DNA of 33,969 nt from a bacterium. GTDB lineage: Bacteria > Patescibacteriota > Minisyncoccia > Ryanbacterales > GWA2-47-10b. The position numbers and the translations under genes were made by a program. Positions 6,131 to 18,909 of this stretch are shown here, piece by piece. The notes beneath the pieces are model-generated. The model made no database searches. It saw nothing but the letters and a program-made list of their open reading frames with translations, and was not told the origin of the DNA. Positions within the stretch are counted from its first letter, which is position 1. Each line of letters begins with the position of its first letter. Location of the stretch: positions 1 to 33,969 of the forward strand of contig JAQBTR010000009.1 in assembly GCA_027624915.1 (NCBI GenBank). Direction: 5' to 3'.

Positions 6131-7669
<1,539 letters not shown>

Positions 7670-16291: not shown

Positions 16292-16573
16292 TTATTTTTT
16301 TGATAGGGCCTCGGCATCTAACGGCTTGTTAGACTGCGCTTCAGCCTCCTGGGCCTGAAGCTCCTTTTGCTTTAGCTTTTTCTCCTTTTTATTAAGTTTT
16401 TTAAGCACATCAATTACCTGACGTCCCTGATATTTGCCACAGTTTTGGCAAATAGTATGAGGACGAATCGTAGTTGCACAATGAGGACATAGTGAAAGAC
16501 CCTCGGCCTTGAGACCGTGGTGTGAGCGGCGGTTTCCGGTGTGAGACCGAGTATGTCGCATTCGTACTGTCAT
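16292..16573 (-). CDS. rpmF: 50S ribosomal protein L32
   Basis: 93 residues from the ATG at 16573; an upstream in-frame extension lacks L32 character. The N-terminus MTVRMRHTRSHTGNRRSHHG is L32-like, followed by a zinc ribbon with C29-x2-C32 and C42-x2-C45 and GKYQGRQVIDV. A Lys/Gln/Glu tail of about 35 residues extends the usual 57-60. L32 binds 23S rRNA near the exit region. The gene is divergent from the RNA gene at 16660; a possible promoter (TTGTAT, 17 nt, TAATTT) again places the start of transcription at the ATG. Confidence 0.93.
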   Translation of the reverse strand: MTVRMRHTRSHTGNRRSHHGLKAEGLSLCPHCATTIRPHTICQNCGKYQGRQVIDVLKKLNKKEKKLKQKELQAQEAEAQSNKPLDAEALSKK

Positions 16574-16624
16574 ACAAGCTAAATTAGCACCAATAGGCCT
16601 AGAATACAAGGGTTTTGGGGTGGC

Positions 16625-16653
16625 TTGACAGATATAGATGGTCATGCTACAAT
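16625..16653 (+). promoter_or_regulatory. Strong promoter of the long structured RNA
   Basis: A perfect -35 TTGACA (16625-16630), 17 nt, -10 TACAAT (16648-16653). It is the closest match to the housekeeping consensus in the window. No open reading frame with a ribosome-binding site follows. Confidence 0.85.
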
Positions 16654-16659
16654 GCGCAA

Positions 16660-17532
16660 GCACTTTGAAAAAAGTTTATAGACAAGGAGAGGGTCATAGC
16701 TGGACACATCAAGTCGAAGGGGCCCAGCCACCGTGTCGATGGTATGGAGCTTCGGCGCCGTCCGCCCTCTCCCCCTCGGGCCGCCACCCATTTGGCTGGC
16801 TACACCCGACCATAAATCCCTTGACGTGTCCGAGCGCTTGCGCTACGGTACACGTCGGACCTGAGGATCGTCCCGCTGGCGACCTCTACAAAAGCCCAGA
16901 TGGGCAAAGGAGCAAGTAAATGCATGACCCGCCGACCGGTCTGAGAGAAGAAATTGTAAGATACTGCTCGATCGTCACCTCGGCTCGCGGCCGGCCTACC
17001 TCGTCCTGACGAACGAGACCGGCGCCCGCGAAGTGATTGTCAACTGGTACCGCACCGCTCTGGTCGGTGTATGGACAGAGGGCTGACCACAAAAAGCAAA
17101 CACCAAGTGGAAAAAGGAGTTCCGATGATCCTCCACCGAATGCGGTTCGACCGTACCAAGGAGGCAGTACCGGAGCATCCACCGTAACTGGCTAGGCACA
17201 AGGCCTTGGAGCTGAGTGTCAATCAATGGTGAAACAAGCCGTATAAAGAAGCGGCGGAGAGGAAGGTGAAGATCCCCCACGAGACTGGGAAAGCTTGAAA
17301 AAATTCAAGCCCAACTGGAAACGTGGCATCCGCACTCGGGTACAAACCGAGCAACCCAATAAGTTAACTGTAGCGATAGCTGCAACTGAGGGTGAAGCGG
17401 AGGGGCTGGCCGCGTGGCTGCCGACCTCAAAGACCCCTACAAGCGTGCAGCGCACGCAGACCGACAGGGGCGGTCACCGAGCGGGGAGACGACGCGCATC
17501 AGCGCCGAGTCTCCCCGCTCATTTCTTTTTTT
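16660..17532 (+). ncRNA. Unidentified long structured RNA, about 870 nt
   Basis: A non-coding unit bounded by a consensus promoter and a strong terminator. It is much more GC-rich than its neighbours, and its reading frames are short, overlapping and domainless. Helices I can pair by eye include GGACACATCAAG (16702-16713) with CTTGACGTGTCC (16820-16831), CCAGCCA/TGGCTGG (16724-16730, 16793-16799), GGAGAGGG/CCCTCTCC (16686-16693, 16765-16772; crosses the first two, a possible pseudoknot), GCCC/GGGC (16894-16905), CGGTTCGACCG (17143-17153), GCTTGAA/TTCAAGC (17293-17310), CTCGG/CCGAG (17335-17351), GCGTGC/GCACGC (17443-17457), GACCG/CGGTC (17459-17475). I find none of the conserved blocks of RNase P RNA, tmRNA, SRP RNA, 6S RNA, rRNA or a group II domain V. 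It may be a new class or a divergent member of a known giant RNA class. Confidence 0.7.
17479..17532 (+). terminator. Main terminator of the structured RNA
   Basis: A perfect 12-bp GC-rich stem GAGCGGGGAGAC / GTCTCCCCGCTC with an 18-nt loop containing a further small stem, followed by ATTTCTTTTTTT. Confidence 0.92.
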
Positions 17533-17555
17533 ACAGCCATATTGGCTGTTTTTTG
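17533..17555 (+). terminator. Second, tandem terminator
   Basis: ACAGCCA TAT TGGCTGT followed by TTTTTG, directly after the first terminator. Tandem terminators suggest a heavily transcribed unit. Confidence 0.85.
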
Positions 17556-17574
17556 TTACAACGTATTAGACCTC

Positions 17575-17602
17575 TTTACAAAACCGGTCTATGTAGTATG
17601 GT
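17575..17602 (+). promoter_or_regulatory. Probable promoter of the lipoprotein gene at 17647
   Basis: TTTACA (17575-17580), 16 nt, TATGGT (17597-17602). The 5' UTR begins with a hairpin (TTTGC GACTT / AAGTC GCAAA, 17604-17631). Confidence 0.45.
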
Positions 17603-17646
17603 GTTTGCGGACTTGCCGATAAGTCGGCAAACGGATTGGAGAACAC

Positions 17647-18210
17647 GTGAAGAAAACAGTGGCGATTCTATTCGCACTTATTCTCGGATGTGGTGGAGGA
17701 GGTGGATCATCGGATGGCAACAACATGCCGCCGCCAGAGTCTACACCAACACCCGAACTCACTCTCGTCAGTGTCATCGATCATGGAGCTGGCTGGGACA
17801 TCGTCGATCAAGCAGATGACTGCACTCCAAGCTCTTACGGCGTAGAAGACGTTGGTGGTGTCATTGGATGGGCAGTTATCACCGACGACTGTCACTCAAT
17901 CACCGTTGAACAAAATACCGTCGAGTACGTGGATGGCGACGAAGACATCCATATCCGATTCTTTCATGACGACCTCTCCATCCCATTCGGGACGACGGGC
18001 GTACCGGAAGATCCGGTTGCTACCGTATGGATTTCAGTCAATGGCGTTGAAGTCTGGCGTACGCTCTACCCCATCCCAAGTGGATTTACGATCGATGAAA
18101 TCACGGTACAAGCACCACAGAGCTTTCAAGTCGGAAGCCCAATCCAAATACATGTCGAAAATCACGGCGACAACGAGTATGCACTACTCGAGGTTGGCGT
18201 ATACAGATAA
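17647..18210 (+). CDS. Small lipoprotein, probable beta-sandwich, unknown function
   Basis: 187 residues, GTG start with GGAGA 5 nt upstream. The signal MKKTVAILFALILGC ends in a lipobox, followed by five glycines and a Ser/Pro/Thr tether (to about residue 38). The remaining 150 residues are strand-rich with acidic turns (VEYVDGDEDIHIRFF, PVATVWISVNGVEVWRTLY, IQIHVENHGDNEYALLEVGV), like an Ig or carbohydrate-binding-type sandwich. No family recognised. The Cys-Gly5 tether matches the lipoprotein at 1835. Its third-codon positions look more GC-rich than those of neighbouring core genes, and it lies just downstream of the structured RNA, so the two may share a history. Confidence 0.7.
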   Translation: MKKTVAILFALILGCGGGGGSSDGNNMPPPESTPTPELTLVSVIDHGAGWDIVDQADDCTPSSYGVEDVGGVIGWAVITDDCHSITVEQNTVEYVDGDEDIHIRFFHDDLSIPFGTTGVPEDPVATVWISVNGVEVWRTLYPIPSGFTIDEITVQAPQSFQVGSPIQIHVENHGDNEYALLEVGVYR

Positions 18211-18239
18211 CCCCCCAGAGCAATACTCTGGGGGTTTTT
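18211..18239 (+). terminator. Terminator of the 17647 lipoprotein gene
   Basis: CCCCCCAGAG / CTCTGGGGG stem with a CAATA loop and TTTTTA, starting immediately after the stop codon. Confidence 0.92.
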
Positions 18240-18342: not shown

Positions 18343-18909
18343 TTAAATAATTCTCGTACAAAACGACGCACGATGCATATCAGATAGTCCATGTTTTTTT
18401 ATGGCTTCCATATGTATCTTGGTCCCGTATCCTTTGTGACGAGCAAAACCATATTGAGGATACTTGGAATCTACCTCAACCATCATTCGGTCACGCGTTA
18501 CTTTTGCAACGACCGAAGCGGCCGCAATAAGTGGTTCTTTTTCATCACCCTTGATAATCGTGTATTGTTTATATTTTTTAGGAGCCATAAGACCTCCATC
18601 CAATAAAACAGTTGCAGTCTCCTCGTCCCATTTGGTCAAAAGATTTCTAATGGCACGCTTTGCAGTTTTGCTAATTCCTGTTTTATCGATTTCTTTATTT
18701 GAAATGCAAACTCGATAAAATGTCCCATGTTTTTTTATAAACCGAAACCACTCCTCACGTTTTTTTGGTGTGAGTTTTTTGGAATCGCGAATCCCCTTTA
18801 ATTGTTCATTGGTCAAGCCCGAAACGGCTGCCAAAACCATGGGTCCAGCCAGTGGTCCTCGCCCAACCTCATCAATACCTACAAATACGCGTTTTGCATT
18901 GCTCTGCAT
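18343..18909 (-). CDS. rnhB: Ribonuclease HII
   Basis: 188 residues. The catalytic motif GIDEVGRGPLAGP (Asp13, Glu14), IRDSKKLTPKKRE, the third carboxylate in LLDGG (Asp104) and the VVAKVTRDRMM helix (Asp140) are all present. The enzyme cuts the RNA strand of RNA-DNA hybrids and single ribonucleotides in DNA. Length is normal. It is transcribed divergently from dnaE across a large palindrome, and ends at hairpin C2. Confidence 0.96.
   Translation of the reverse strand: MQSNAKRVFVGIDEVGRGPLAGPMVLAAVSGLTNEQLKGIRDSKKLTPKKREEWFRFIKKHGTFYRVCISNKEIDKTGISKTAKRAIRNLLTKWDEETATVLLDGGLMAPKKYKQYTIIKGDEKEPLIAAASVVAKVTRDRMMVEVDSKYPQYGFARHKGYGTKIHMEAIKKHGLSDMHRASFCTRII

Follow-up and report, generated by a model that had tools for sequence, protein, structure and literature searches.

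A lineage-specific, GC-rich predicted transcript of about 870 nt between rpmF and rnhB of a Ryanbacterales genome is a candidate accessory RNA

Between the genes rpmF and rnhB of a bacterium of the order Ryanbacterales (Patescibacteriota) lies a GC-rich stretch of DNA, 16625-17555, which, judged by its signals, is naturally read as a separate and well-bounded transcription unit. The explanation that we favor, tentatively and at somewhat less than even chances, is an accessory, lineage-specific transcript, either noncoding or of dual function, which was gained at a variable site. A close rival, ranked second, is the mRNA of short peptides or a decayed protein gene. All positions refer to the window, the whole analyzed stretch of 33,969 nt (contig JAQBTR010000009.1 of assembly GCA_027624915.1), unless another contig is named. 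The genome to which the window belongs comprises 839 kb in 31 contigs with an estimated completeness of 98.6%. The features of the locus are:

16292..16573, minus strand: rpmF (L32), the left border of the variable site
16625..16653, plus strand: sigma-70 promoter, TTGACA, 17-nt spacer and TACAAT (11 of 12 matches), with TG ahead of the second hexamer
16656..17535, plus strand: predicted transcript of about 870-880 nt without a credible long ORF (by hexamer score, periodicity, and Rfam)
about 16740..16890, plus strand: predicted 5′ structured island (local z of −2.5 to −3.9)
16909..17009, plus strand: Shine-Dalgarno (SD) sequence AAGGAG and 29-codon ORF (ATG at 16920, MHDPPTGLREEIVRYCSIVTSARGRPTSS), a possible short peptide
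17114..17187, plus strand: SD sequence AAGGAG and 20-codon ORF (ATG at 17125, MILHRMRFDRTKEAVPEHPP), a possible short peptide
17277..17401, plus strand: predicted 3′ structured domain of one long interrupted hairpin and one three-way junction
17479..17531, plus strand: intrinsic terminator 1, a hairpin (17479-17520) with 19-nt GC-rich arms and a 4-nt loop, followed by a T run
17533..17555, plus strand: intrinsic terminator 2, a hairpin (17533-17549) with the stem ACAGCCA/TGGCTGT, followed by TTTTTT
17647..18210, plus strand: lipoprotein-like gene (GC content 51%) with its own promoter-like site (17575-17602) and terminator (18212-18234)
18343..18909, minus strand: rnhB (RNase HII), the right border of the variable site

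The interval between rpmF and rnhB spans about 1.8 kb, has a higher GC content than its surroundings and contains the GC-rich unit and the lipoprotein-like gene. The promoter with its 17-nt spacer and the tandem terminators, which had been described in an initial annotation, were borne out at 16625-16653, 17479-17520, and 17533-17549, and the ends of the predicted transcript were deduced from them. The local fold of terminator 1 has a z-score of −5.7. The GC content of the unit is 57.5%, compared to 36-46% in the genes just upstream. If known RNAs and inspected protein genes are excluded, the unit is the longest strongly GC-rich gap in the readable genome, which comprises nearly all of the sequence (contig C12 and four small contigs were read as N). 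Furthermore, an inverted repeat of 28 nt (82%), its arms 53 nt apart, is located between the terminator of the lipoprotein-like gene and rnhB (18241-18268/18322-18349); it may be terminator-like or the remnant of a mobile element.

The description of the unit as about 870 nt of GC-rich sequence without a credible ORF also held. With a hexamer model trained on the own genome, its ORFs score negative or at most 5.8, compared to 56.5 for the lipoprotein-like gene and 473 for dnaE, and the unit as a whole has no three-base periodicity (P = 0.23; lipoprotein-like gene z = 18). Pfam had no match for the translations of the unit, and PHROGs had none that was convincing. Within 700 nt of the promoter, no SD-headed coding ORF reaches 30 codons. 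Both SD/ATG pairs listed above are properly spaced, and as many occur together in 0.4% of shuffled sequences (P = 0.004). The ORF at 16920 has no three-base periodicity of its own. In another frame, a stretch of about 30 codons at about 16995-17088 reads PAYLVLTNETGAREVIVNWYRTALVGVWTEG with a third-position GC content of about 80%, counted from the sequence; its periodicity is borderline (P = 0.08), and some windows of 17000-17299 reach P = 0.02-0.06.

In the readable genome, 32 promoter sites match the consensus in at least 11 of 12 positions, that of the unit among them. Others of the 32 belong to rRNA, RNase P RNA and tmRNA and to many small, often GC-rich (about 50%), SD-headed orphan protein genes, and most of the other strong promoters with GC-rich DNA downstream drive small proteins. 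Since these orphan genes carry both features, promoter strength and GC content are not in themselves arguments for an RNA gene. The unit is set apart from such loci by its missing SD-headed ORF of at least 30 codons. Six of them (C5:9658 and, on the reverse strand, C7:37452, C8:3017, C17:89262, C29:1267, and C30:2233), with near-consensus promoters and SD-headed orphan small proteins and often GC-rich, look like a recognizable class of accessory genes of this small genome. In addition, at C29:8863-9600 a perfect promoter is followed by a tRNA gene and two stretches which repeat pieces of the 3′ part of this tRNA.

Searches of the unit against Rfam, with the gathering threshold and, over 16500-17700, with E ≤ 10, gave only chance matches; the latter search had none to OLE, GOLLD, or ROOL. 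RNase P RNA had no Rfam match in the window, and the genome's own copy is located at C24:13503-14037. For tmRNA, both ARAGORN and Rfam were negative over the unit, and the tmRNA of the genome was found at C13:87617-87959. Group I and group II introns, 6S RNA and SRP RNA were not found over the unit with Rfam either, so that the initial statement that it belongs to none of these families was confirmed by the search which had been proposed for it. The 23S rRNA with its group I intron and the 5S rRNA were recognized elsewhere in the genome, and the recognition of this intron shows that the Rfam search works here. The 16S rRNA gene stands alone in the window (6133-7669, minus strand), the 23S and 5S rRNA genes being on another contig (L053), where the 23S match spans 4.7 kb, with two tRNA genes lying inside it besides the group I intron. 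Away from the 23S rRNA gene, an intergenic stretch of 91 nt on contig C24 (L100 11375-11465) matches positions 2125-2216 of 23S rRNA with 59.7 bits. It is probably the L1 stalk region and may represent a leader that binds L1, or else a fragment.

The predicted structure of the unit exceeds that of shuffled sequences only modestly. The whole unit folds with a z-score of −3.0 (20 shuffles), or −1.5 without the terminator. Averaged over windows of 130 nt, z is −0.84 for the unit, compared to −3.0 for RNase P RNA, −2.0 for tmRNA, −0.85 for 16S rRNA and +0.1 for dnaE of the same genome. In a coarser scan, its mean local z of −0.96 fell below every value from 27 whole-unit shuffles (−0.60 to +0.79), and its best single windows were within the range of the shuffles. 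Most of the unit folds like shuffled sequence or worse, with positive z-scores for windows starting at 16896-17016. The 5′ island reached a z-score of about −4.5 in the coarser scan. For the 3′ domain the minimum-energy structure equals the centroid, and its z-score of −5.06 is optimistic, because the borders were picked after the fold had been seen. A single-sequence covariance model of this domain gave only chance-level matches outside the window in 384 genomes, the two best being the reverse strand of tRNA-Asn genes. Similarly, when two pieces of the domain were used as exact patterns to scan viral contigs, the two matches were due to chance, and one lay within a tRNA gene.

Two helices had initially been paired by eye. 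The long-range helix 16702-16713/16820-16831 has a predicted pairing probability of 0.00, as a local hairpin of the 5′ island outcompetes it, and such a helix occurs within 120 nt in 5% and at any distance in 37% of shuffles. The helix 16686-16693/16765-16772 is predicted with a probability of 0.97-0.98, although 8-bp helices of such a span occur about once per shuffle. The pseudoknot suggested from these pairings needs both helices and is thus unsupported.

The lipoprotein-like gene, which had been proposed as a partner of the RNA, is a unit separate from the predicted transcript by virtue of its own promoter-like site and is itself lineage-specific. In its predicted pairing with the RNA it ranks 57th among 827 genes, which is at chance level (P = 0.12 against shuffles), so that the proposal found no support. 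The antisense pairing between unit and gene, 17 nt at 88%, is unexceptional and was set aside. A base-pairing scan of gene starts had no clearly prominent match, and its top match was inspected and judged to be chance. Ranking by long-duplex energy was uninformative, because unrealistic duplexes were built.

When relatives were searched as suggested at the outset, none of four family members and nine further genomes of the order had a DNA homologue of the unit, and none turned up among the 384 genomes searched for the class or the 380 searched for the phylum, two counts in which the genome of the window itself is included. Collections of phages and plasmids and the remainder of the own genome were likewise negative. 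All of these DNA searches gave chance matches of at most 20-38 nt. Since no homologue was found, there is no covariation for the unit. A scan of genome contigs with rnhB led to one distant locus. Conservation of the neighborhood smc-rnc-nusB-rpmF-rnhB-dnaE is sufficient to identify the site in relatives. Of the four family members, G001 and G002 have rpmF and rnhB about 50 bp apart without an insert, whereas the contig of G004 ends before the site. In G008, two reverse-strand protein genes are located there, and in G009 a gene for an ATPase, which, judged from sequence features only, resembles those of type IV pili or type II secretion. The adjacency of the two genes in some relatives and the different cargo in others make this a variable insertion site. 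Because no known RNA and nothing in the relatives matched, the unit looks recently gained and, as far as the searched collections show, lineage-specific.

The fourth family member, G003, carries an insert of 1.3 kb at the site (L037 4123-5350) in the same orientation as in the window; G002 belongs to the same genus. The insert holds two ORF-poor units, the first of about 685 nt with a perfect 12/12 promoter (TTGACA-17-TATAAT), 60% GC, strong hairpins and a hairpin terminator, the second with the promoter TTTACA-17-TATGAT, about 290 nt and a terminator. The first unit folds with a z-score of −7.7, terminator hairpin included, and has no ORF of at least 60 codons on that strand; a 30-codon ORF has significant periodicity (P = 0.0015). 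Neither stretch has an Rfam match near any gathering score. Past the promoter there is no nucleotide similarity to the window unit, the covariance model of the 3′ domain found no match in G003, and the best match between the translated units is within chance. A frameshift joining the ORF at 16920 to the PAYLVLTNETGAREVIVNWYRTALVGVWTEG frame would give a peptide of 56 residues with a weak likeness (TNETG/TNNTG) to the small ORF that comes first in the G003 unit; with P = 0.0075, uncorrected for the choices made, this likeness is a lead and no result. The 18-mer CTCAAAATAAGGCTTTTT is found just upstream of two perfect promoters, C8:3039 (minus strand, next to the promoter at C8:3017) and L037:4086 (plus strand, next to the G003 promoter). 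These are its only two copies in the sequence examined, and it is regarded as a curiosity.

The unit could well be one of the GC-rich accessory genes, either as the mRNA of very short peptides or as a protein gene in decay, broken by a frameshift near 16990. We consider this a serious possibility, if a less probable one than an accessory transcript. The paired SD-headed ORFs, the GC-rich third positions of the PAYLVLTNETGAREVIVNWYRTALVGVWTEG frame with its borderline periodicity, the frameshift-joined likeness to the small ORF of G003 and the many orphan genes of about 50% GC, whose similar loci encode small proteins behind near-consensus promoters and SD sequences, all favor it, and the last of these also speaks against an accessory RNA, as do the shuffle-like folding of most of the unit and the single best windows of the scan, which do not exceed those of shuffles. 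However, the hexamer scores are low, Pfam, PHROGs and the translated G003 comparison gave nothing convincing, the 3′ domain folds far beyond shuffles, and an intact promoter with terminators is unexpected for an old pseudogene.

It is improbable that the insert is functionless, a mobile or foreign leftover whose promoter and terminators are incidental or only insulate the neighbors. Foreign composition, a variable site, no homologue and mostly shuffle-like folding would agree with this. Against it, the near-consensus promoter and the two terminators match the GC-rich block in register, and about 83% of the genome is coding even with the masked contigs counted in. A gene for a transposase or an integrase was not seen, nor was a clear target duplication. 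Equally unlikely is a positionally conserved, fast-evolving large RNA gene, present in at least two genera (window genome and G003) and diverged past recognition. The place, orientation, promoter, size, GC content and fold of the G003 unit, which has no long ORF, point in this direction; against it stand the lack of similarity past the promoter and of a covariance-model match, the missing insert in G001 and G002, the protein genes at the site in other relatives and the periodic 30-codon ORF of G003 itself. Slightly more doubtful still is a new kind of large bacterial RNA at rpmF-rnhB in several genera, in which promoter, size, GC content and density of folding would persist and the sequence would change too quickly for homology searches. 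The initial suggestion of an important, undescribed class like OLE, GOLLD, or ROOL is not upheld, given the absence from the sampled relatives, the adjacent flanking genes in close relatives and the small excess of structure.

The accessory transcript, which remains our preferred explanation, is favored by the intact promoter and tandem terminators, the noncoding hexamer scores and overall periodicity, the missing Rfam family together with the location of RNase P RNA and tmRNA elsewhere, the fold of the 3′ domain and the mean local z, the SD/ATG pairs, the adjacency of rpmF and rnhB in G001 and G002 and the lack of DNA homologues in the searched collections. For it, the following course can be proposed. 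The unit would have been gained at the variable rpmF-rnhB site. Its own near-consensus promoter would drive an RNA of about 870 nt which ends at the tandem terminators and is most likely itself the product. Its predicted folded domains (about 16740-16890 and 17277-17401) would flank a less folded middle from which the two SD-headed ORFs of 29 and 20 codons may be translated. Because these ORFs sit between two folded domains, a dual-function RNA is possible, that is, a structured regulatory RNA, presumably acting in trans, which is also translated into short peptides.

Dual-function RNAs of the RNAIII type in Staphylococcus, with a length of about 514 nt, are long, independently transcribed and structured, and have a very short SD-headed ORF and a strong terminator. 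The unit resembles them as a long separate predicted transcript with SD-headed short ORFs and a strong terminator. However, it has no sequence or family relation to them, is longer (870 nt) and its translation and regulatory role are predictions. The loci of GC-rich small genes in the own genome (e.g., C5:9658, C8:3017 reverse, and C17:89262 reverse) share with it the near-consensus promoter, a GC content of at least about 50%, SD sequences and orphan status, but they encode recognizable small proteins and the unit does not. OLE, GOLLD, and ROOL, which are represented in Rfam, are families of many members with dense structure (see also PMC12286853). They are similar to the unit in size range, in forming a separate unit and in the lack of a long ORF, whereas for the unit itself neither a relative nor an Rfam match was found, and its folding is confined to two islands. 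The discovery of structured RNAs from long GC-rich intergenic regions relies on homologues and covariation (PMC8723152; PMC8632094; PMC11109978); the unit is likewise long GC-rich intergenic DNA in a genome of lower GC content, but here both are absent.

As an independent transcript, noncoding or of dual function, the unit would be unusually long for so small a genome, provided that it is transcribed. It would then also indicate that the variable insertion site in these bacteria holds RNA-like cargo beside protein cargo. In this genome, moreover, high GC content behind a strong promoter is not enough to identify a structured RNA, as a set of orphan small-protein genes shares this signature.
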